Assembly: GCA_037783545.1 (NCBI GenBank)
Contig: JBBELK010001000.1
Location: 124,001-188,000, forward strand
Direction: 5' to 3'
From: Henricia sp. BOLD:AAB3569
Lineage: Eukaryota; Echinodermata; Asteroidea; Spinulosida; Echinasteridae
Length of the DNA: 64,000 nucleotides
How positions within the stretch are numbered: the stretch's first letter is position 1; each line of letters starts with the position of its first letter. A program made the position numbers and the translations under genes. Under the pieces are notes generated by a model, which saw only the letters and a program-made list of their open reading frames with translations, was not told where the DNA came from and did no database searches. Positions 3,181-63,821 of the stretch are shown here, piece after piece.

Positions 3181-6100
3181 CTGTGGAACACAAGTCAGGA
3201 TTAAAGTGTTTGGTCATACAAAATCAAAAAACAGAATTAAATATTATTAAAACAACAAATACAAGCTAATGCACTTTTTATGACTTGTCTGACATAACCC
3301 TAGAACTATGAGAGATATACATATCCCCATAGTAAAAAAGCATGGTGGCGCAAAAGAGCTCTACACCAACTTTAAAAACATTGACTAGTGCAATAAACTG
3401 CTGCCCAATCACCACCAAACTCTGTCTGTTAATTCTTGAGAACCTTAGCTTAAGTTAAAAAAAGAGAAACAAGTTTTAGGCAAAAAAAAAGAAAAAAAAA
3501 ACCAAAAATATTCCGAGCAATAAAGTCAAGTTGACATGAAGCCAGCAGGCATGTTTTTAATCGAAACAACAAAAAAACCTTTGAAAAAAAAGCTTTGACG
3601 CGCAGCATTGAGAGTGACGCGTAGTTTGATCAAGTAGGCCCTGGTCAATTTAGGGATTTATGATTCATATGTATTCATTTTTGGTGTACTTCACTCTCCA
3701 ATTTGAGAGAACCCCATGTAAATACCAATTTTGGTTAGAAATTTATATTTGTTTTTATAAACACTGTGTAAAATACGAGCTTCTTTTGGAAATAGTTTCA
3801 GATTTGTTGACAGTCATCAAACATGGAGGGGGGAGGGTTGGGGGAGGGTTGGGGGGATGGAGGGTTGGGGGGATGGGGGGATGGGGGGGGGGGGGATGGG
3901 GGATGGGGGATGGGGGATGGGGGGAAATGGGGGAGGGGGGTGGTGGGGGATTGGGCGGGATGAGGGAATGGGGGAATGGGGGAATGGGGGAATGGGGATG
4001 GGGGAATGGGGATGGGGGAATGGGGATGGGGGGATTGATCTCCCTATACTCCGTGCACAACCAAACTCTCTATGGGGGTGTGCAGTAAGGAAGAAAATCC
4101 ACAGAGTAACCAAAAAGGTGGTTACTGTGTGGATTGTGCAATTTACACCGCTCACTATGTGGAACGCGCTCACTATGTGGACGGTGTAACTATGTGGATC
4201 GCCAGTTGGGGAGCCCTCTCGTCGATAATTTTCGAAATTTCAGAGGGTTAGGGAGTACTGTTTTGTGTCGAAATAGGAAAAAAAGAGAGGCACAATAAAA
4301 AGAACTCCCCATCCAGTAAAAAAGGGTTCGAAACCATTGGTGGCAGTTTCGCCCCAAAATCCACATAGTCGCCAAGAAATCCCGCAGGGGGATGGGATGG
4401 TGGGGGGATGGGGAGATGGGGGGGGGGGGGGGGGGTGGGGGGATGGGGAGATGGGATGGTGGGGGGGATGATGGGGGGAGGTAAATTGTTTGTTTTTTTC
4501 ACTTCCCTTCTAAATTTCATTAAAAAAAAAAAATTCATGTGAATAGAGAATGTTTTTCCTTGCAAAAAGAGTCAATTTTAATTTTTCCACCTTTGCATAT
4601 TTTGGCCCGTATCTCAAAAAAAGAATTGGCAAGTTGTGACTGAGTTTCCAAATGTAAAAAAAACCAAGTGTTCGAAATTTTGCTTTTTAATTCACAACCC
4701 TATCAAACAACTGACCTGTTTGTAGCACAATTCCTCATGCTCTTTGCAGTAGCAGAAGAGAATATTGACCATCATGTCATGCATGTAATCCGTCTGGAAG
4801 AACTCAATCTCAGGGAAGGTTCGCTTGACGTCTTGGCTTATCTCCTGACGAGACTCTTCGTCTTGGAAGAACTTGTTCCAGGGACTCTGATGAAAAAGGC
4901 AGATCAGAAACCATGCAAGCCTTGACATTGACTGAGACCACCAAGGCCAATGCACCTTCAAAATAAGACCGGCTCGGCAGTACAGGGGCCAATTTCGTGG
5001 CGCTGCTTAAGCGCTAGCTGAAAACGTGTGCTTACTGTAGCAGAAAAGTTGTGCTAACTTTAAGGCTATTTCACGAGCCAATAAAGCAAGAAAAGCGCAT
5101 TGGTTGCACTTACTTCTGTTGCTTAACCTTGCTTTATGTTGTTGCGCCATGGCTGTTGTATCGATAAAGATAAAAATGTATTTCTTTAGGCTAAAAATCG
5201 CGATGAAGTAAAAACACTTTCATTTTTACAAGCCGACTACATGCTCAATAATTTGAACGTATTGCAATGCGCGCGTGCAGCATTTTCGAATGAAAATACG
5301 CTGGTGAGTATTTTTTACGCGTGTTCATGTGCATCTATTGGCGCGCACGTGTATGCGCGTGACCGGTGACACCCAAACATGGGTGTTTTACGTCACGGAA
5401 TGTTTTACGTCACGGAATGTTTTACGTCACGGAATGTTTTACGTCACGGAATGTTTTACGTCACGGATGTTTTACGTCACGGAAAGCAATCAATACCCTA
5501 TCCTCTTAAATTTCCTGAGGCTGGTATGTACACTAAAATCCAGAACACATTTGAAACAAAGTTGGCCATTATGACTCTCCGGTTGGCATCAATGCCCTTT
5601 AAAATTCAGTCAGTCCTTCGCAAAAACATCATGGCGGCCACCATCAAGTCAGTGATGAATTCTTACACATGTCAGAAAAAATCATCTCACATTAGGCCTA
5701 CAGTTAAAATCAAACTTACCATTCTGATCGTCGTTCTCCAAGAATTCTGTGCAATGATTGTTTTTTTTCCCAATGAATCTTCCAAACAGCAGAACAAGTG
5801 TGAACGTGCATTGTTTTTACACAAATCATACCCGTATCACCCGTATGATATGCTGTTTAGAAGATTGATTGGGAAAAACTGATCATTGCACAGACTTCTT
5901 GATTGATTTATCTTGCGTCGGGGAGACAATGTTAATTAGGGTTTGTTTTGCCCTTAACCGACGTAATTATTAACGCTGTATACTCAGTGCTTTCCTGAGA
6001 CACTATGAATAACTTCATGGTGTGCTGGGGTGGGACTCAAACCCACGACCTTCTGCAAACAAGGCAGACGTCTTAACCACTCGACCACCGAGCTAGCTGG

Positions 6101-18618: not shown

Positions 18619-18650
18619 ATGGCAGCGAAAAAAATAGAAATTGAATATTG
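18619..18650 (+). CDS. SELENOW-A exon 1
   Basis: MAAKKIEIEY plus TG of the Cys11 codon, then donor GTGAGT. The 5' flank has no other ATG close upstream. Confidence 0.93.
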
Positions 18651-21600
18651 GTGAGTGCAAGAATTTAAAGGCTAGCGCTGTCTAGCTGAGCCATTCCTTC
18701 CTCCATGCTGAGCCTGAGCCTGAGGCTGAGGTTTCCTAACTTTATCATGTGGATTTATAGGGCTGAGGGAACTTGTCAACATGAACACGATATCTCAAAA
18801 CATTGAAATCAAAATGTGTCATTTTATCCCCGTGCCACACTAATTCCCCCTGGGACCATGGACGAAGTTCTTCCTCCATGCTGGGACTCGCCCAAACCTT
18901 GTCAGGCATAAACCACTATGATTGTAGGTCGAGTCGCCCCCTGACCGAGTCGCCCCCTGACCGAGTCGCCCCCCTGACCGAGTCGCCCCCCTGACCGAGT
19001 CGCCCCCTGACCGAGTCGCCCCCTGACCGAGTCGCCCCCTGACCGAGTCGCCCCCTGACCGAGTCGCCCCCTGACCGAGTCGCCCCCTGACCGAGTCGCC
19101 CCCTGACCGAGTCGCCCCCTGACCGAGTCGCCCCCTGACCGAGTCGCCCCCTGACCGAGTCGCCCCCTGACCGAGTCGCCCCCTGACCGAATAATGGTTC
19201 CAAGGTTGGAATCGGAAAATGTTTATACAATTATAAGGAAATACGGCAGCCAAGAACCTACATTGTATTCAGCCGTGTGTGTACTATTTTCCATTAACAT
19301 ATCGCCCCAAAATACATCTCCAAAATCGGCAGTTGGCGGGCACCGTCAACTACCTAGTCTTGATACAAGACACCAATACGGGCACGGCCATAAGCATAAC
19401 AAAGCACTCTCATGCTCTGCTTAGCACCGCTGTTTAATGTCATCGATGGCGCCCTGTTTACAGTCTGCTCTTAAAGGACAAGATAAATAACGCTTGAATT
19501 TTAGACTAACCAAGAAAAAATAACAATATAATGCTTCGTGCCAAAGAGGGCGATTTGCATCACATCACAATTTTTGAAGTTGCCGTCTATTCATTTTCAT
19601 TGACGATTCCGCACGTAAATTGGACGCATTTTAACAAGCATACAACAGCAACCGCTTGATGAATTTTTGCAACAAAAGTATTTTTGAAATCTATTGCAGC
19701 TTGTCTGTTGTGTAAAAGTGGTTTTAACTCAAAATAAAAATTATGAATTTGTTTTCTAAGTCGCTAACTTCGCCAAACACTTCATAATTCGCGATTGGCC
19801 ACTTTACATAATTGGGTCAAGGGGGCGAGTCGATCAGGGGGCGACTTGGTAAGGGGCGAGTCGGTCAGGGGGCGACTTGGTAAGGGGCGAGTCGGTCAGG
19901 GGGCGACTTGGTAACGGGCGAGTCGGTCAGGGGGCGACTTGGAAAGGGGGCGACTTGGAAAGGGGCGAGTAGGTAAGGGGCGACTCGGCCAGGGGGCGAC
20001 TTGACCTGATTCCACCACTACACAGGTCCTTGAGGGAATCAATTGATCAGTAGAGGCGCACTGTGGGTTACACCGTTGACACTAGGGTCGTTTAAGTGGC
20101 CTCATTGGATTCCTCATAAAAAAATCTTTGAAGCTGCCATTTAAAAAAAACATCTACCGTTTACTTCTTAGGTTACAATCGGAAAAAGAACGCAGGCATC
20201 ATTAATCGATACTTTTATTCTCACTAGAGTTGTGGAATGAATCAAAACACCTTTGTATTGTGCACGGTTGTCTGCATGTTTAAATCAAAATTTGTCTCTT
20301 GGGTCTGATATTTGCTCAATATGTGCACTCACCCAAGCGTTTAAATATTCAGACGCATGGATCTGAAGTCTAGTTTCGGTGAAATCTTAAGGCAAAATTT
20401 TGACCCTCCGTGTGATAAAAATAAAGCAGTTTACTCCAAAATATCAAATGTGCGCAAGAGCGGAGAGGTCAACATGTTGCGTTCAAGCGTACAGTTCTCT
20501 CTCACCGACCGGGAGTGTCGTGACTGTCGTCCACGTAGAGTGGGAGCGGGGCGAAGTGGGAGCGGGGCGAAGTGACTGTAAACATGGTAAAGCCAAGACA
20601 AGACACATCAACGTCGCAAGAACAAAACGTAAAAGTGGCTGAAAAAGTTGTACGCCCAAGTGTTTTCTCAGCTACGAAAATCTGTAAATTTCCCAATCCC
20701 AAATTTGGGATTTTTCAAGCTCTTAAATAACCTTTTGTCATTTAAACATTTTTCTTGCAGTGGTGGATGAGGTTACTATTCCCACTTCAAGTGTCTGAAG
20801 GACATTATTCGTTCTAAAGTCCCTGGAGTGGAAGTGGAAGGCAAGGTTGGCCGCAAAAGTGAGTTATCGTTCCTCATATCTCCTGTTTTTAACCCCTTGC
20901 TTTGGTAATCTTTGCAGTGCTGTAACAAAGATAGAAAGTTCAGGTTTGGTGCGGTAAAAGCTTGAACATTTTTTCCCAAACATTGGTTCGGTTCGAGTTT
21001 GGCAACTGATACTGGAGGTTTCTCAATTATAAAAATGTTTCCCAAATACTACTTATCATGGCAAGATTTCAACCAAGGCTTGGAAATGAGAATATTTCAG
21101 ATTTAACCATGTATTTAATTTTTGTTTTGTTTGTCTTTAAGCTTCGTTTGAAGTCACCATCAATGGCAACCTGCTGTTCTCCAAGTTGAAGGCTGGAGGA
21201 TTTCCTGTTGATAAGGAGGTAAACAGAATGGGCCTTGATTACTTAGCGTTTTTAAGTCTAACCCCTTCACAATGAAATCTTGATAAGTCAAAATCCTGAC
21301 GGCTAGTCATCAATAGAGCTTGGTCTTTGTTGCAATTGAATTAAGACATTGTGGCTTGAATTATAACAAAGGGGTTCGTTTGACAAACATCCCAAGATGT
21401 ATCTTAAGGGTTCTTAACTGCCATTGTAGGACTTTAAGAGAAGACAACTCCTGTGTCTAAGACCCCGTTTGACGAAGATTTAGTTAATCATCGTTATTTA
21501 ATGAAGTGTTCTTACACATCTTACTTAATAAAGATCGAATGAAGATCAAATGAAGAGCCGTACTTTTCACATCAGACAATCTCTAACGAAGATCAAATGA

Positions 21601-22099
21601 AGTTGTGGGATGCCACAATGGCCTGGTTGTACTGAGCGTCAAACTTTGAGCGTCAAACTTTGAGCGTCAAGCATTTGACCCTCTTTTTAAGTGGTTGTCA
21701 AGCGGCGCGTCAACAAACAAAACAATGGTTGCCATATGCTCAACACGCTAGGTCTGTCGAATTGCTTCGCTTTGAAGGGAGCGTGCAAATGAAGCTATTT
21801 TGCTTTATCGAACGAAGAGATTCTGAACTTCATTAAATAAAGAGGTGCGCATTCACAATTCAAAAATCCTTTTGTCGCACCCTCGTCAAATTTTCATTGA
21901 ACAAGGCCAGAGACCCTTTCCAGGGACTTGTGATGGCTTCTGAACATTGATCCTGGGACCCATTTGAGCTCATTCTGTTTGAAAGTTCAATGTAATTTTG
22001 AATTCCTCCCAACAGATCATCGAGGCCATCAAGAACTACAAAGGAGATGGTGATGTGACGCTCCTCACCAACACTGAGAGCGGTTGCATCTTGCTGTAA
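18619..22099 (+). CDS. selenoprotein W-family protein with C-terminal CaaX box (SELENOW-A, MIEN1/Rdx12-like)
   Basis: Four exons: 18619-18650, 20761-20858, 21142-21218 and 22016-22099, joined in phases 2, 1 and 0. They give 96 residues if TGA at 20768-20770 is read as selenocysteine. Read this way the protein has EIEYCGGUGYY at residues 7-17, the CxxU redox motif of the Rdx (SelW/SelT/SelH/MIEN1) thioredoxin-like fold. GKVGRKTSFEVTING and LFSKLKAGGFP follow, both typical of SelW. The tail TLLTNTESGCILL resembles the MIEN1 tail and ends in a CaaX box whose last Leu predicts geranylgeranylation (known rule). Vertebrate MIEN1 has Cys in place of Sec. A SECIS-like hairpin lies downstream at 24127-24177. 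The start ACGATGG is a fair Kozak context. SELENOW and a Sec-form MIEN1 are both reasonable names, so no symbol is given. Confidence 0.95.
18931..19189 (+). repeat. 16-bp satellite array, about 16 copies
   Basis: Unit GAGTCGCCCCCTGACC, nearly perfect; two early units have an extra C. It lies in SELENOW-A intron 1. Open frames on the minus strand (GRLGQGATRSGGDSVR repeats) are a by-product of the period, because 16 is not a multiple of 3 and all frames repeat every 48 bp. Confidence 0.97.
19818..20008 (-). repeat. same satellite in inverted orientation, composite 31-bp units
   Basis: Units such as GGGCGAGTCGGTCAGGGGGC alternate with GACTTGGTAAG. The core GGTCAGGGGGCGACT is the reverse complement of the 18931-19189 unit. 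The two arrays face each other across about 630 bp in the same intron. This array is more diverged than the first. Confidence 0.9.
20761..20858 (+). CDS. SELENOW-A exon 2 with Sec TGA
   Basis: Acceptor TTTTTCTTGCAG. The first T completes Cys11, followed by Gly-Gly-TGA(Sec)-Gly-Tyr. It ends VEGKVGRK plus one base, donor GTGAGT. The 98-bp length equals that of exon 2 in SELENOW-B. Confidence 0.95.
21142..21218 (+). CDS. SELENOW-A exon 3
   Basis: 77 bp, encodes TSFEVTINGNLLFSKLKAGG then FPVDKE. Acceptor GTCTTTAAG, donor GTAAAC. The family hallmark FSKL is present. Confidence 0.95.
22016..22099 (+). CDS. SELENOW-A exon 4 with CaaX tail and stop
   Basis: Begins after CCTCCCAACAG in phase 0: IIEAIKNYKGDGDV, then TLLTNTESGCILL and TAA. 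The IEAI helix and the prenylation box are MIEN1-like. Confidence 0.94.
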   Translation: MIEAIKNYKGDGDVTLLTNTESGCILL

Positions 22100-23337
22100 T
22101 GCAGCACTAGCGTTATAATGGACACCTGTTGGCTTCTCAAATGTATCGGATGCTAGATTGAATATTCTTCAAATTAACATATTATATTTTATGTGTAAGA
22201 TAAATAGTATAAATGTTCTCAGGGAGTGAGATTTGTGGGTGGTTAGTTTCACAAACGCAAAATGTATTTCAAATATAAATTTTCTACGCAAAAGTCATGT
22301 ATAGTTTCACATTTTGTTAGGTGCTATGTGGAAACTAGTTTTCAACCAAAAATAAAATGACAAAAACTAACCTGAAAGATGCTGCAAAAATAATCAATTC
22401 CAACTTGAGCCGTGTTCGCATTGGCCGTTTTCTGAGATAAATTGTTAAGCATTTCCAAAGTTAATTTTTGTGTCGCGCAATTACGTAAACTGAAACTGTG
22501 GATTTGGAGTAATAGCTCCCTTCATTGCACACTCTGTAAATGCAAATAAAACAACCCGTCTGCAGTGGAGTTTTTGACAACGTTAAATTGGTGACATTGG
22601 TCAGCTTTATTGAGCAGAGTTTTGATGGTAAAAATAACCACAAGAAAATTGCCAAAGCGGAACGTTTTCCGGGCTTTACCAATTAGTTCGGTAATTTCTA
22701 CAAGAAGAAGTCGATTGTGAACAAGGCTTGAATGATTCATATAAATGCACGTCTTCAATCTATATCTGACCAATTATGAACCTAAGCACTTAATTTGTCT
22801 GTATTGTGGTGTTTATATAATGTAACTTAGTGGAATTGTATTGGTGTAAATTTCTTATTTTTGGTGAAGGATGTATATTTCATTATGTGTTGTCTTTAAG
22901 AGATGGTTGTCTTTTGAAATGACTGGAATGGGATTCAACTTAAGCAATTGGCTTTGATTTCATCCTGATTTCGTCTGAATTTTTGTATTGAGACAGAAAA
23001 ATTGAGAACCAAGATACTTATGTAGGCCCTATGTGCCTTACGTGCCTTTTAACATTTCTGGGAAAAAACCCGGTATATCAAGCCAAATACAAGGCCTGTC
23101 ATTTCAAAAACACTATACATGTATATGCATCAGTCTGACCATGGACAGCCATATTTTTTTTGCCAAAATGTGGAGGAAGAAAATGAGGCCTTCTGGTTAA
23201 AGGCGTAGAATCGCAAAAATTTCTTTACAAAGTTGGAAAAGTATCGCATGAAACCATCTGTAGGCAAAATTACCAATTAGAGTTGTACTTTAGGACCTTG
23301 TTCAACATACACACATGCATGATCAGCATGATGCTTA

Positions 23338-23586
23338 GGGTGGATTCACACTTAAATTTTTCGCACGTAATTTTGACGCGTGCTGCTTTGAGAAAAAGCG
23401 GTATGGAGGGAATTTTGAGGGAAACGACGCACTGAAAACCACATAATCCAAAAAAAAAGCTTTCGGCCCAAGTCAATTCTGTGGTTTTTCAGTGCCTCAT
23501 TTCACTGCATATTCCCTCCAAACCGCTTTTACTGAAAGCGAAGCGCATTGCATTTTTGCCCGAAAAAGCTTGGTGTGAATCCACCC
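23338..23586. mobile_element. TIR MITE with TTA target duplication
   Basis: Tips GGGTGGATTCACAC and GTGTGAATCCACCC, directly flanked on both sides by TTA. TTA duplication and short tips fit PIF/Harbinger-type MITEs (known rule). The interior has the inverted phrases AAAGCGGTATGGAGGGAATT and ATTCCCTCCAAACCGCTTTT. Partial relatives near 16060-16240 and 55646-55815. Confidence 0.85.
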
Positions 23587-23723
23587 TTACGAATGTCGCA
23601 CAAAATGAAGAATATGGCTGTCTATGGTCTACTACTGGCAAATTATTTTTGTAAGTTGATAATTTTTGTACAAGGCCGTTAATGGCATGAATTGTTATTC
23701 ATCTATGCACGGATTATTGCTTA

Positions 23724-23878
23724 TAGACCGTATCGAATATCCGCCATTTCGTGGGGCACCTTTTGTTACTCAAACCGTTCAACAATGGAAGCACAATATG
23801 TGCAACCATGCATGTCCTCCAGGAACAAAGAAACTGCCCCACGAAATGGCGGCTATTCGATACGGCCTATAGAATACA
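23724..23878. mobile_element. palindromic MITE family 7, intact copy
   Basis: Arms TATAGACCGTATCGAATATC / TATTCGATACGGCCTATA and CGCCATTTCGTGGGGCA / TGCCCCACGAAATGGCG. Loop about 70 bp. A copy interrupted by another palindrome is at 29324-29603 in the SELENOW-B 3' region, and a fragment at about 2523. Confidence 0.88.
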
Positions 23879-24107
23879 AACTACTGAATGAAAAGTTGTC
23901 GGCTATATGCATTCCAAATCTCATTGTCAAAACAGGACTGGAATGCGTAATTAGTCTCAATCAGCAGTTTGTTTTCTATAGGACTGATTCAGAGGACACT
24001 ATCGACCGTCCTTCCGTGTGAACAGGGTCTATTCTTCCCAACTCCATACATTCTGAGAGCCTCCGTTGGTGTCCAACACTCTCCCTTGTTTCCCTCGCCC
24101 GTCACAT

Positions 24108-24190
24108 GACATGAAAGACCCAGTGAATGATGGGATAGGTTTAAAAGGGGTACACAACCTCAAGACCTAGCCTTGATAACCAGTCTGGAG
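24108..24190 (+). promoter_or_regulatory. SECIS element of SELENOW-A (form 2 type)
   Basis: The 5' quartet strand is ATGA at 24127-24130 and the 3' strand is TGAT at 24174-24177. Between them TGGGATAGGTTT pairs with AGACCTAGCCT (one mismatch, a few G-U). The unpaired AAAA at 24143-24146 supplies the apical adenines. An extra mini-stem GGGGT/ACCTC with loop ACACA makes it form 2. Outside the quartet, AGAC at 24116 can pair with GTCT at 24183. It lies about 3.4 kb of genomic DNA after the Sec codon and 2.0 kb after the stop. The SELENOW-B hairpin shares the surrounding CCCAGYGAATGATGGG and CCTTGA. Confidence 0.9.
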
Positions 24191-24255
24191 TTTTATGTAT
24201 GTGTCGGGTGAAACAAACATTTGAGGGTGCTTCTTTGTTTCACATGTAGTTTTTA

Positions 24256-24268
24256 AATAAAGAATAAA
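24256..24268 (+). terminator. polyadenylation signals for SELENOW-A
   Basis: Two AATAAA hexamers, 24256-24261 and 24263-24268, about 80 bp after the SECIS core. They are the first such pair downstream of the hairpin. Confidence 0.6.
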
Positions 24269-25782
24269 TATGCAACTTGAAGATGTATGCAAGTGAGACT
24301 AGTCATTTTTGTTTGGTGTTTATTGTTGTGCACTTGACAACCCTATGCTGTCCAATGGAATAACTTTACGGTAGGTTAACGCAAGTTGCAAAACGCCCAT
24401 ATTGTATCATTTGCAATGACCAAACAAATTTTACTTGTTTTGACAATATACACCTTTCTTAAATTGTTGAGTATTGAACAAACATGTTTGTTTTTGCTTT
24501 TTTTTTTGTCAAAAATGTTAACTCTTCTGCAGACTTAACAAATGAATGTGGTTTACCGACATTCTTCTTTAGAAGAAATTGTTTTTTGATTCTGCAAATG
24601 ATACAATGGCCCTTTAAACAAGATTCATAACGTTTTTATTATGCATATGTTCCCATGGTGTACAGATTAATAATGGATTTAAAAAAAAGTACTGTGCTTA
24701 TCAAATGTTACATACAATCCGTAAAGTATAATTCAAGAGTTCTCGGTAAAATCTTCCTCCATGCCCTGACACAGTGCATGCACTGGGCAGATAATCTAAC
24801 ATGTGAGCATGAGACACAGTGATATGTGATACATGTATCATGATTAAACCTGAGACCACTGGCACACTATTCTTCCATGGTTCAAGAGCATGACGGAATG
24901 GCTTTTCTAAATTTACTGTGCACTCTGCAACTAGTCTATCTGCTACAACAAGCATACAGTAATAAATAATTACTGACACCTGTTGCCACACATAAAGTTG
25001 CTCAATGCTTTAGTTCAAGATTTGGGCTGTGACCTGGGAAGGAAAGTTGTACTCCTTAAAGGAGTGTGACCAGATCACTTTTTTTTACCCATAACTCCCC
25101 GGGACTTACCTTATGGGTCATGAGATTTTTATATCATAACATCAGTTATATTTTTCTGATTACGAAACTGAAACTCCCCGCTTCTAGGCCGCATATTTCC
25201 GAGGATATCGTCGAAAATCTACCGATTATTTGTAAACTAATTTTCCAGTATCAACGTTTATCCACTGAAAGCCGACTCGATAGTTTTGTTAAATTTTTTA
25301 CTGGAAATCGCGAATGTTTTCTGGTTTTTGGGACATGGGAGGTGTGTATGGGAGTTATTTTGATAATATTGGTAAGTTACATCGAAAACTATTTTCCAGA
25401 AACTCTGGTCATGCTCCTTTAACTGCCCAAGGCCTGTCAGCTAGTTAATTTCCTATGATGCAAAACTAATGTCAGCAAATTTCCAAAAGTATTCCAAATG
25501 TCAAAATATAAAATTCAATTCAACTGAGAACTGGGACAAGTTTACCAGCAGAATCCTGTGCCTACATGTCACTGATAATAGTCAGTACGTGCCATATCCT
25601 TGACCAGAAATCCATTAACAATGAACACACAAATGAGGTGTGGCCTACCATGCCTATAGCTGTTAGTGTTACTGTTAGTGTCACGTCAGTACAGTGGTGT
25701 ACAAGTACATCGGGCAATATAGTGTACACACACTGCATACATTTGGGAGCACTTGCCTGTCCTGTAACTAACCAAAAAGACA
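24269..25782. other. spacer between SELENOW-A and SELENOW-B
   Basis: No gene seen. It holds a diverged AAAGGAG-type element (25056-25423). The last 200 bp before 25783 is the presumed promoter/5' UTR of SELENOW-B and shows no obvious TATA box. An in-frame TAA 18 bp before the ATG supports the chosen start. Confidence 0.6.
25056..25423. mobile_element. AAAGGAG-family MITE, diverged copy 4
   Basis: Starts TTAAAGGAGTGTGACCAGAT and ends GGTCATGCTCCTTTAA. The interior order matches the other copies (TCATGAGATTTTTATATCATA, then GAGGATATCGTCGAAAATC) but many positions differ. Confidence 0.78.
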
Positions 25783-25814
25783 ATGCCGACCAAAAAGGTT
25801 GAAATCGAGTATTG
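25783..25814 (+). CDS. SELENOW: SELENOW-B exon 1
   Basis: MPTKKVEIEY plus TG of Cys11; donor GTAAGT. Same 32-bp length as exon 1 of copy A. Confidence 0.93.
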
Positions 25815-28800
25815 GTAAGTTGCACGTCATTAAATAAAACGCGGCATGAACTGCAAATACATTTTATTTGGAGTATTTTTCTAGCTGTTACATGGTTTAT
25901 GTTGTTAAATGCTGTTTTCAGAAATATTATTTTGTTAAAAATCAGATTAAATTGCTATGCACCTATCAATTGTTCACTCACCCCCCACTCCCCAACCCCC
26001 CCTCCCCCTAGGCTACCCCAGCCCAGGGGAAAAATTTATGTGACAAAATCCTCACAGGAGGGGAGGACAAAACGTGTGTGATTTGCTTTACCCCATGTCA
26101 GCCATAGCCAGATCATGCAGGCCTATGTGCAGGCTGATAAAAATGTTTTTTTTTTGACTGTGTCTAATTCCACACCCCAAGGCACAAAACAAATGCACGG
26201 GCGCCCTAAATGGGTGAAGCAGTGCAATGGAGGGGAGGAGCAAGTCAGTTTTCTGGGAATTAAGCTAGGACCGTGTTTACACTGGTTCCGAGCTCGGGAT
26301 CGAGATTGATCACCTGATAAGAATGCGTCAGTACAAACCGCAATTATCCTGAGTGCCGCGTCTACATTCTGTTACTAGTTAATCTCAAGTTGCAGTCAAC
26401 TACGTCATACCATGGTCATATATATGCTCTATATGTGTCTGTACTGAGCAATGTGTGCATGTGTGCAGGCTTTCCCCCGCTACGGCTGTGGAGCGGATGC
26501 GGCAGGATGCGGTAAAGATGAATTAATTGCTTATGTCTTATCTAACCGCAAACTGATCCCGAGCTCGGGAGCGAACCCTTTGCAAACGTGAGACCAAAAT
26601 CTCGGGGTCTGATCCGGGGCCAATTTAGTCAGTTTGTGATCCGGGGCTGATCCCGAGCTCGGTGTTTGACCCCGAGATCGGGATCAAATGTGAACAGGGT
26701 GTAAGTGTTTTGGGGATCAAATGCATTAAATAGCAGTACTAGCTGTATAGCAGGCATATTATTGGAGACAATTATGAATTTGCAGAAAAAGTAAACTGCT
26801 TCCCTCCCCCTGAAACGGTACTTACCAAATTTGTTTGTCAGTACCACACCAAGAAATGTCAACATTTTATATACAGCGCGAGTCATACCCGAGCCCCCCC
26901 TCTTCATACACATGAACATGTTGATAATTTTGGCTTCCCGATGTGTGTGTTTTTTTTTTGCAGTGGTGGATGAGGTTACGCCTCCCGCTTCAGGGAGCTG
27001 ATGGAGGAAATCCAAAAATCAGACCCTGAAGTGGAAGTGAAAGGCAAAGTAGGCAGGAAGAGTAAGATTTTTGGAATTATTGTACCCTCCCCCACCAACC
27101 CTCCCCACAACCCTGGCCTCCCCCACCACCCCTCCCCCACCACCCTGGCCTCCCCCACCACCCCTCCTGGCCTCCCCCACCACCCCTCCTGGCCTCCCCC
27201 ACCACCCCTCCTGGCCTCTAGTCACGATGACATAAACTAATTCCATTTCTCTGATTTATGTTGTGGTTGTTTTAAAGCAATATAGTCAAACCTTGTTATC
27301 CAGTTGAAGCCAAAAGTTGATTGGCCAAAAGTTAAGACCAGGGGCCAATTTCACAAAGCTGTTTAGCAGAAAAGTTTGCTTAATCCAAAATTTGTTTGCT
27401 TTATAAAATGAGTTAATACTAAAATTTTATGTGACGTGTATTAAAATTGATTGGTTCACATACAATTTAAGCTATTATAACCCTATCCCCTTGGTCCTAT
27501 GAAAAATCGTGTACAAATTGGAGAATTTGGTTACCGTTTGGGTTAACCCATTTATAATAAAACAAAATTTTTTGGATTAATTGAATTTTTCTGCTGAACG
27601 GGTTTATGAAATTAGCCCGAGGTCAAGCACCACAAATAGGACCGACTCTTGAGAGCCATTTCTACATTCATTGACACTGTACGAATCTTTTCACCAAAAA
27701 GGTAATAACTTTGCAACTGCCATGGAGTGAGATTTGCTACACTGATGACAGGTTATCCACAGGTTCAAGTTTAAAACACAGTACAAATGAATGGTGGAGA
27801 AAGGAATGGCGTCAACTGTTTCAGACAGCAGCAAAGCTGACATTTTAACTTGTCAACCGCCCCTGTGACTATACATTGCCAGAACGTGTTTACACGTCCT
27901 CCGGCAGAGGTCCTTCAAAAATAAGAAAATTACCAAATGATCCCATAATCTTTTGCTTGGTGTTTTATATGTGTTGACTTTCTAACAGGTTGTTTTGAGG
28001 TTGTTTTGAATGGTAAACTGCTGTACTCCAAGCTCAAAACTGGGAAGTTTCCACAGAATCAAGAGGTATGGTACTTATGCAGGCCCGTAGCGGAAGGGGT
28101 ACAATCCCCCTCCCCCTTCCCTCCTCCCCCTCCTCCCTTCGACTCCCCTGAATCTAGGGCCTTTATCCAAAACTCGACTTGGGCTCAGGCTCCCGCTCCA
28201 TGTAAACCACATGGAGCCGGAGACGAAGTCGAGATTTGGAAAAAGGCCTAGAAATCATGGTCCTTTAAAATGATTGGTTGGTGGGATTTACAGGGGAGGG
28301 GCGTGAACAATTCTGAATCGGTCTATTGTAACTTTGACTCTAGCCTAGTTGAAAGTTTAAAGGCCCTATATGTACATGTATCATTTGGAAGATAAAACTC
28401 TTTACAGATTCGTGGAATAAGAGTGTAACATATCTGATGAAGAATGTTGGTAAACTAGCCTGAAGAGATTTTAGCTACATAGATGCATCAATGCTTCAGT
28501 AAACCTTGAAAATCTATATATGGATTTTGTGTACAAGTGAATGGTAAAAAGTCCCATGCACGGGAATTGTTTTAAAAAACCACCTTCGGTTGTCAATTTC
28601 CAGCTTGAAATACCATTTTGGACAGAAATAAATTCATGTGGTGTTTGTTACCATTATAACCATCAACACTTTGAGTAAGGTTTTTCTTGTCAACTCATGA
28701 AAAACAAAATTGGGTTATTGCAAATGATACAATGGGCCTTTAAGTGCTCCTGTCGAGATTCTTTAAAATGCTACAGGTACATGTAACACTAACTGTCTTC

Positions 28801-29145
28801 CCTTAGAATGTACACCCTCTTTGCTTTAATTGTAGTTTTAGAAGCATAGCAATGCAAAATCAACAACCGAAACATCTCTCACTCCGCGAAAAAAAAAGCT
28901 TGGTAAATTGACTTGCTAACCCCCAATGAAAATGCACCTGTATAGGTACTTACATGTACATGAATTTGCTTACTGGTACTTACCAAGTTGCATGCTATGT
29001 GGAGTGCCAAAAATTGCACCTGATCTTAAAGATACCGAATGTTGTAGAACTTAGGTACCTTGCCACTGTACCAACACTGAAAAATGTGGGTTTTTTTTGT
29101 TTTAATTGGCAGATTGTGGATCTGATCATGAAGAGCAGTGATTAG
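25783..29145 (+). CDS. SELENOW: selenoprotein W-family protein, short form (SELENOW-B)
   Basis: Four exons: 25783-25814, 26964-27061, 27989-28065 and 29113-29145, with the same phases as the upstream paralogue. They give 79 residues when TGA at 26971-26973 is read as Sec. Residues 7-16 are EIEYCGGUGY, the CxxU redox centre of the SelW fold. VKGKVGRK and LLYSKLKTGKFP follow, and the protein ends IVDLIMKSSD. It lacks the 17-residue tail and CaaX box of copy A, so it should be cytosolic and unprenylated. By hand count about 60% of the first 70 residues match copy A. Vertebrate SELENOW is slightly longer (about 87). A SECIS-like hairpin at 30194-30243 supports Sec insertion. Its exact reaction is unknown; SelW proteins are glutathione-linked thiol-redox proteins. 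Confidence 0.94.
26268..26704. mobile_element. internally deleted relative of the SANT-domain element
   Basis: 437 bp. Ends CGTGTTTACACTGGTTCCGA and GATCAAATGTGAACAGGGTG, with internal CCGAGCTCGGGATC and CTCGGGGTCTGATCCGGGGC matching 48164-49157. In SELENOW-B intron 1. Confidence 0.82.
26964..27061 (+). CDS. SELENOW: SELENOW-B exon 2 with Sec TGA
   Basis: Acceptor is a long T run ending GCAG. Completes Cys11, then Gly-Gly-TGA-Gly-Tyr, and ends VKGKVGRK plus one base; donor GTAAGA. 98 bp. Confidence 0.95.
27087..27217 (+). repeat. C-rich 22-bp tandem repeat in SELENOW-B intron 2
   Basis: Units like CTGGCCTCCCCCACCACCCC repeat about 5 times, starting about 25 bp after the exon 2 donor. Purely low complexity. 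Confidence 0.9.
27989..28065 (+). CDS. SELENOW: SELENOW-B exon 3
   Basis: 77 bp, SCFEVVLNGKLLYSKLKTGK then FPQNQE. Acceptor CTTTCTAACAG, donor GTATGG. Confidence 0.94.
28155..28250. mobile_element. foldback MITE family 6, copy in SELENOW-B intron 3
   Basis: Arms TTTATCCAAAACTCGACTTG and AAGTCGAGATTTGGAAAAAG, centre GCTCCATGTAAACCACATGG. Counterpart of 18349-18445 upstream of copy A. Confidence 0.75.
28357..28742 (+). mobile_element. dispersed repeat family 8, copy 1
   Basis: About 386 bp from TTAAAGGCCCTATATGTACA to ATGATACAATGGGCCTTTAA. A reverse-orientation copy is at 52541-52916 and a truncated one at 41024-41247, all sharing TTCATGTGGTGTTTGTTACC or its complement. Confidence 0.82.
29113..29145 (+). 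CDS. SELENOW: SELENOW-B exon 4 and stop
   Basis: After AATTGGCAG in phase 0: IVDLIMKSSD, then TAG at 29143-29145. Truncated relative to copy A, but the IVDLI helix aligns with its IIEAI. Confidence 0.88.
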   Translation: MVDLIMKSSD

Positions 29146-29985: not shown

Positions 29986-30177
29986 TTGTAGGAAAATTTA
30001 ATTTTTATCGCCAAAAGGGGCTCTAAACCTGAGAAAGACTCGCATATGATTTTATTAGTACAGTTGTATACATGTAAATACAGAATGCCTCAGAAAAAAA
30101 TTGTACTTTGGAAGCCACTAGCCCAAGGCTTATGCCAAATGCTTTGTTGTTCTCAATGCGGCCCACGACATGACATG

Positions 30178-30255
30178 GAAACCAACCCAGCGAATGATGG
30201 GCTGGATTCAAACGGGAAATATTTCCCAAAATTCAGCCTTGACAAATAGACTGGA
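30178..30255 (+). promoter_or_regulatory. SECIS element of SELENOW-B (form 2 type)
   Basis: ATGA at 30194-30197 and TGAC at 30240-30243 form the quartet strands. TGGGCTGGATT pairs with AATTCAGCCT almost without fault. The apical AAA at 30210-30212 is unpaired, then GGGAAATATTTCCC (30214-30227) forms a perfect mini-stem. It lies about 1.05 kb after the stop. The core flank CCCAGCGAATGATGGG is nearly identical to copy A, while the mini-stem differs by sequence but keeps pairing. Confidence 0.92.
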
Positions 30256-30303
30256 GTTTCTTGTATGTAGTGAGGCCACAGCCGAACAGCCAAGATTAAT
30301 GTT

Positions 30304-63748: not shown

Positions 63749-63821
63749 TGGCTTCATAGCTCAATTGTAGGGCATCTGCACGTTAAGCAGAAGGTCCGCT
63801 GTTCAAATCCCGGTGGAGCCA
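63749..63821 (+). tRNA. tRNA-like sequence, anticodon GTT (Asn) if folded; probably pseudo-tRNA or SINE head
   Basis: 73 bp. A 7-bp acceptor stem (TGGCTTC/GGAGCCA, one G-U), a D stem GCTC/GGGC and a perfect anticodon stem TCTGC/GCAGA with loop ACGTTAA. Position 33 is C in place of the near-universal U, and the T stem around TTCAAAT pairs poorly. These faults argue against a working tRNA. Confidence 0.45.

Follow-up and report, generated by a model that had tools for sequence, protein, structure and literature searches.

A candidate selenocysteine form of MIEN1 with a C-terminal prenylation box in the sea star Henricia sp.

Does a selenocysteine (Sec) redox centre occur together with a membrane-anchor signal in one small protein of the Rdx family, and to which branch of that family would such a protein belong? 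The question is raised by a 64,000-nucleotide stretch of the genome of the sea star Henricia sp. BOLD:AAB3569 (positions 124001-188000 of contig JBBELK010001000.1, here C1000; the window), which holds two tandem Rdx genes that we call copy A and copy B. Copy A (18619-22099, plus strand) consists of four exons, with GT...AG borders at all three introns. Its spliced exons form a single frame that runs through CGG-TGA-G to the C-terminus TLLTNTESGCILL and translates, with TGA read as Sec (U), to MAAKKIEIEYCGGUGYYSHFKCLKDIIRSKVPGVEVEGKVGRKTSFEVTINGNLLFSKLKAGGFPVDKEIIEAIKNYKGDGDVTLLTNTESGCILL. The protein belongs to the Pfam family Rdx (PF10262; 66.2 bits, gathering cut-off 22.6), and its terminal CILL, a CaaX prenylation box like that of human MIEN1, shares an exon with the last helix. 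Judged from its sequence, copy A is quite probably a Sec-containing selenoprotein of the MIEN1/Rdx12/SelW2 branch, geranylgeranylated at CILL and membrane-held. An original prediction made from the bare DNA had placed the CGGU motif and the CILL tail in one protein, which the spliced four-exon frame confirms; its gene span was right for exons 2-4 and began at exon 2, exon 1 lying 2.1 kb upstream.

The region is found again on contig C275, most simply as the other haplotype; the longer stretches that align are about 90-99% identical and contain many insertions and deletions. There copy A keeps its start, splice sites, CILL and stop, and the in-frame TGA stands at the known Sec site (CxxU) on both contigs. 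Four codons differ from C1000, three synonymously and one as R28S. Copy B follows copy A in tandem (25783-29145, plus strand), shares its intron positions and CGGU motif, scores 70.2 bits against Rdx under the same cut-off and is identical to copy A at 44 of 79 residues.

The placement within the family was approached with a similarity search of both copies against PDB chain sequences. Copy A matched human MIEN1 (2LJK) with an E value of 3.1e-20, ungapped from residue 5 to its last residue, 96, and identical at 35 of 92 residues, whereas mouse SELENOW (2NPB) gave a weak match (E 1.1e-4; 23 of 71 residues identical). The same preference was seen for copy A without its tail (67.5 bits to MIEN1 vs 26 to SELENOW) and for copy B, though it is tail-less (55.1 vs 23.2 bits; 23 of 75 residues identical to MIEN1). 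When the last 20 residues of copy A were compared with the MIEN1 tail, 4 of 20,000 shuffles scored as well. This likeness lies in the exact length, the TN pair and the CaaX box.

Human MIEN1 is reported to be geranylgeranylated at its C-terminal CaaX Cys (PMC3527542, PMC6738349), and the geranylgeranylated proteins tabled in PMC6738349 have Leu at X, as does CILL of copy A. Copy A might be the Sec protein described here with CILL unprenylated or partly so, its Cys acting as an additional redox thiol or having no role; we consider this unlikely. Prenylation is indeed read from four residues, but these fit the pattern of geranylgeranyltransferase I (GGTase-I; aliphatic, aliphatic, Leu) and are placed where human MIEN1 carries its lipid.

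The genome (740.7 Mb) was searched exon by exon. Copy A as query matched 10 exons, and these all belong to one of the two copies, on C1000 or C275. Human MIEN1 as query gave six matches: four were exons of A or B, another, on C266, is weak and has an internal stop, and the last (C23:1694236-1694367) reads VYSCLMLFFISNAIETQLLSTGAFEISLNGRLHF, which we take to be an exon of SELENOT. No Cys-type MIEN1 was found by these searches, which score best candidates only; because neither query listed the genome's own SELENOW1, a diverged MIEN1 copy could be missed. This SELENOW1 lies on C542 and reads CGGUGYGSK / FRRLQTELEDEFDEGQLDI / EGESTPQVTGYLEVTVNGQLVHSKK / DGDGYIDSDAKRQKIFKAVAAAL-stop, without a CaaX box, and is identical to mouse SELENOW at 41 of 72 residues. 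Its last two exons were located by tblastn, the second exon was assigned from a weaker tblastn match and the Sec exon from the sole upstream pattern match, and its first exon was not found. We place copy A with MIEN1/Rdx12 because of the ungapped match to MIEN1, the presence of a separate SELENOW1 and the failure of these searches to find a Cys-type MIEN1.

Our main tree comprised 26 rows, namely an earlier 27-row set minus two bacterial rows that had been cut at the wrong CxxC, plus the own SELENOW1. The own and mouse SELENOW formed a clade (99/94), as did A, B and MIEN1 (92/79) and, within it, A and B (93/81), and all of 200 bootstrap trees (100%) separated A, B and MIEN1 from the SELENOW pair. 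Grouping A and B with the own SELENOW1 was rejected (P value of the approximately unbiased test, p-AU, 0.007), and a grouping of A with MIEN1 to the exclusion of B was not (p-AU 0.15). In the 27-row tree, which lacked the own SELENOW1, the A+B+MIEN1 clade received 93/71, A+B+SELENOW a p-AU of 0.218 and A+MIEN1 without B a p-AU of 0.074. The bacterial outgroup is far away and roots the Rdx tree only loosely. The 20 bacterial relatives that we fetched all carry CxxU when TGA is read as U (CMMU, CAVU, CGEU and others), and Sec is therefore common in the bacterial kin of copy A; a tblastn search at E <= 1e-3 returned no relatives in viral contigs.

Several results pull away from MIEN1 and, in part, towards an ordinary SELENOW duplicate with Sec in which CILL arose by chance or convergence. 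The nearest paralogue, copy B, lacks the CaaX box; the 16 residues of copy A before the box are not clearly MIEN1-like (1020 of 20,000 shuffles were as good); the A+B+MIEN1 clade has no higher support than 92/79; and a rooting that groups A and B with both SELENOW is not rejected (p-AU 0.18). CaaX-like ends also occur by chance: among the 1735 frames of the window that are bounded by stops and have 25 residues or more, 4 carry one, copy A and three others. Nor did gene order help: human MIEN1 is described as a neighbour of PGAP3, GRB7 and ERBB2 (PMC6738349), and 10 frames from the window and two other stretches, hand-picked from a listing of 614 frames of at least 55 residues, contained no Pfam family above cut-off. 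A SELENOW duplicate nevertheless appears improbable to us, because both copies prefer MIEN1 even when compared without a tail, the tail has exactly the length of that of MIEN1 with no gap, and a true SELENOW1 with other exon borders is present and rejected as the sister of A and B. On C275 copy B is likewise tail-less, ending IVDLIMKHSD, and no tail remnant could be demonstrated 3' of its stop on C1000, where the local score was equalled by 104 of 2000 shuffles.

The original prediction had named three outcomes that would speak against it. A position of copy A firmly inside SELENOW was not obtained with the own SELENOW1, although the grouping with both SELENOW survived the test; an absence of the CaaX box from close relatives holds for paralogue B and does not hold for the C275 copy. 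An alternative last exon that replaces the CILL tail may exist, but CILL and the last helix are encoded together in exon 4. Its suggestion of a Sec form of MIEN1 fits our results, with MIEN1 the best match to the last residue and also without the tail, a separate SELENOW1 and no Cys-type MIEN1 found.

Reading of the TGA as Sec was assessed from codon constraint and from the 3' untranslated regions (3' UTRs). In an alignment of 78 codons shared by the two copies, of which 64 lie 3' of the TGA, the first, second and third codon positions show 21, 21 and 37 differences; the nonsynonymous and synonymous distances (dN and dS) are 0.35 and 0.99, with dN/dS about 0.36, a pattern indicating that the frame of copy A is under selection. 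We then considered selenocysteine insertion sequence (SECIS) elements, using a core scan (NTGA, helix, unpaired AA, TGA) over both strands of the window; an earlier, stricter scan missed both elements discussed here, and the looser one was used instead. It returned two plus-strand matches, one in each 3' UTR of A and B, and three on the minus strand. The two hairpins are homologous along about 100 nt, both arms of the basal helix included, and both have a form-2 shape, with an apical AAA followed by a further stem. They fold more stably than shuffles: z is -2.23 for A, equalled by 5 of 200 shuffles, and -3.97 for B, equalled by 0 of 200. The Rfam model SECIS_1 aligns to 211-base stretches around both, end to end over model positions 1-64, with ATGA, AAA and TGA in register. 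As a control, the same scan over the sense strand of 20 kb around the own SELENOW1 gave two matches, one 2.1 kb after the stop and one intronic.

The weight of these hairpins is reduced by several observations. Ten dinucleotide shuffles of the window each gave 5-12 matches on the two strands together; their best energies ranged from -11.8 to -21.9, compared with -14.1 for A and -17.7 for B. SECIS_1 scored only 15.5 bits (A) and 13.8 bits (B) against a gathering score of 35, with E values of 2.2 and 6.7 in a search of 4227 families. No SECIS in the window reached the Rfam gathering score, and a relaxed Rfam search of 22100-25800 listed four weak unrelated matches and no SECIS. Because the scan itself is loose, the SECIS case rests on position, homology of the A and B hairpins, fold and the SECIS_1 register. 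Invariance between the contigs was considered as further support and set aside: the element of A is identical on C275 together with 30 nt on each side of its 100 nt (160 nt), and that of B with its flanks shows one change in 160 nt, but this proves little because the identical stretch around A (24064-24292, 229 nt), the longest within 22016-24400, has a near equal of 224 nt. In the search of the copy B stretch an unrelated family, CbSR12, ranked above SECIS_1. Taken from codon constraint and hairpins, the TGA of copy A is very probably a Sec codon. That it is a plain stop in a decayed or truncated gene, for which the sub-threshold Rfam scores and the similar matches in shuffled windows could be cited, we regard as very improbable, since the constraint falls mostly on codons after the TGA, splice sites and frame are intact in both copies of the region, and homologous SECIS-like elements are correctly placed in A and B.

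For copy A as a Sec relative of MIEN1, we propose the following mechanism. The long 3' UTR would supply the SECIS that helps to decode the UGA of CGGU as Sec. The mature protein would have a thioredoxin-like core, a Sec/Cys redox pair in an exposed loop, with Sec as the attacking residue, and a short C-terminal tail. GGTase-I would geranylgeranylate the CILL box, and the tail would hold the redox centre against a membrane on its cytosolic side, in the manner suggested for human MIEN1 but with Sec replacing Cys. Copy B, which keeps Sec and a SECIS-like hairpin and ends before the tail, would be a soluble cytosolic partner. We infer Sec insertion, prenylation, membrane site, redox role and expression of copy A by analogy.

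The original prediction went further and suggested that this may be an ancestral or parallel Sec state of MIEN1. Matches and tree favour the relationship to MIEN1, and the words ancestral and prenylated are what we infer beyond them. We give an even chance to a history in which MIEN1 descends from a selenoprotein with a prenyl anchor, geranylgeranylation having brought Sec redox chemistry to the inner face of the membrane early in animal evolution; human MIEN1 would then be the Cys descendant, and loss of the anchor from the tandem duplicate, copy B, would have left one soluble and one membrane-bound Sec protein. If the tails are homologous, the order of events follows, with the tail first and the loss of Sec later; the shared type of end suggests that MIEN1 may have had its membrane tail before it lost selenium. 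Membrane selenoproteins, to our knowledge, use transmembrane helices; a selenoprotein held in the membrane by lipid, as the ancestral history would have it, would be unlike them. Work on MIEN1 as a prenylated redox protein in cell migration deals with the Cys form. A Sec relative with the MIEN1 tail would offer a natural test of the role of the active-site residue at the membrane; the role of the anchor could be tested on tandem copies of which one has the tail and the other lacks it.

Table 1. Positions in the window of the exons of copies A and B and of associated sequence elements.
Feature	Position	Strand	Remarks
Copy A exon 1	18619..18650	+	MAAKKIEIEY and first two bases of the CxxU Cys
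Copy A exon 2	20761..20858	+	holds CGG-TGA (putative Sec) motif; Pfam Rdx on spliced protein
Copy A exon 3	21142..21218	+	SFEVTINGNLLFSKLKAGGFPVDKE
Copy A exon 4	22016..22099	+	last helix, tail to GCILL, stop TAA
Copy A CaaX box, Cys-Ile-Leu-Leu (TGC ATC TTG CTG)	22085..22096	+	unchanged on C275
Form-2 SECIS-like hairpin of copy A	24104..24203 (core 24127-24176)	+	ATGA ... AAAA ... TGA; 2.0 kb after stop
Two AATAAA poly(A) signals 3' of the copy A hairpin	24256..24268	+	read from sequence
Copy B exon 1	25783..25814	+	gene model
Copy B exon 2	26964..27061	+	holds CGG-TGA motif
Copy B exon 3	27989..28065	+	gene model
Copy B exon 4	29113..29145	+	ends IVDLIMKSSD stop, without CaaX tail
SECIS-like hairpin of copy B	30171..30270 (core 30194-30242)	+	1.0 kb after stop

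Repeats were also seen within the gene of copy A. Intron 1 holds 16-base tandem units (CGAGTCGCCCCCTGAC) at 18928-19190, an array that looks longer on C275, and related units (GGGGGCGACTTGG) follow at about 19823-20001. An imperfect inverted repeat in the 3' UTR (23384-23541) gave a weak microRNA-precursor score below cut-off and is perhaps a mobile-element remnant. Elsewhere in the window, Rfam matched tRNAs at 6022-6094 (minus strand) and 63750-63821 (plus strand), of which ARAGORN gave the first only (tRNA-Thr, tgt).

Among known proteins, SELENOW (SelW1; mouse 2NPB and the C542 copy) is of the Rdx family like copy A, and the C542 copy has CxxU too. It differs in a longer middle loop and a different last part; the C542 copy lacks a CaaX end, and introns interrupt its coding sequence behind CGGUGYGSK and behind LDI, points at which A and B have none. 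Human MIEN1 (C17orf37, Rdx12, C35) shares with copy A the thioredoxin-like Rdx core, ungapped spacing over 92 residues and an end of the form TN-x5-C-aliphatic-aliphatic-L, but carries CEPC at the position of CGGU in copy A and extends further at its N-terminus, the match beginning at chain residue 26. Cys in place of Sec (CxxC), as in MIEN1 proper, is thus absent from copy A. It is already published that SelW2 and Rdx12 are related as Sec and Cys forms: Rdx12 has been described as the mammalian Cys homologue of a fish selenoprotein (Lobanov 2008, PMC2397514), and the Sec form was named SelW2 in fish, frog and elephant shark (Mariotti 2012, PMC3316567), with the proposal that a duplication of SelW2 and a Sec-to-Cys replacement gave rise to Rdx12 (PMC3316567). 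The name SelW2 further appears for flatworms and Trichoplax (PMC3828610) and for the sea squirt (PMC2874816). The account of SelW2 in PMC3316567 makes, in the part available to us, no mention of prenylation or a tail, and our literature search, which left subscription papers mostly outside, found no published statement of Sec and a CaaX box in one Rdx protein; fish SelW2 may carry a CaaX tail too. What appears new here is a candidate Sec-type MIEN1 with a prenylation box, not a new family. Copy A would thus stand beside SelW2 (SELENOW2) of fish, frog and elephant shark as a Sec homologue of Rdx12, and its tandem arrangement with copy B resembles that of zebrafish SelW2a and SelW2b, which lie in tandem as well (PMC3316567).

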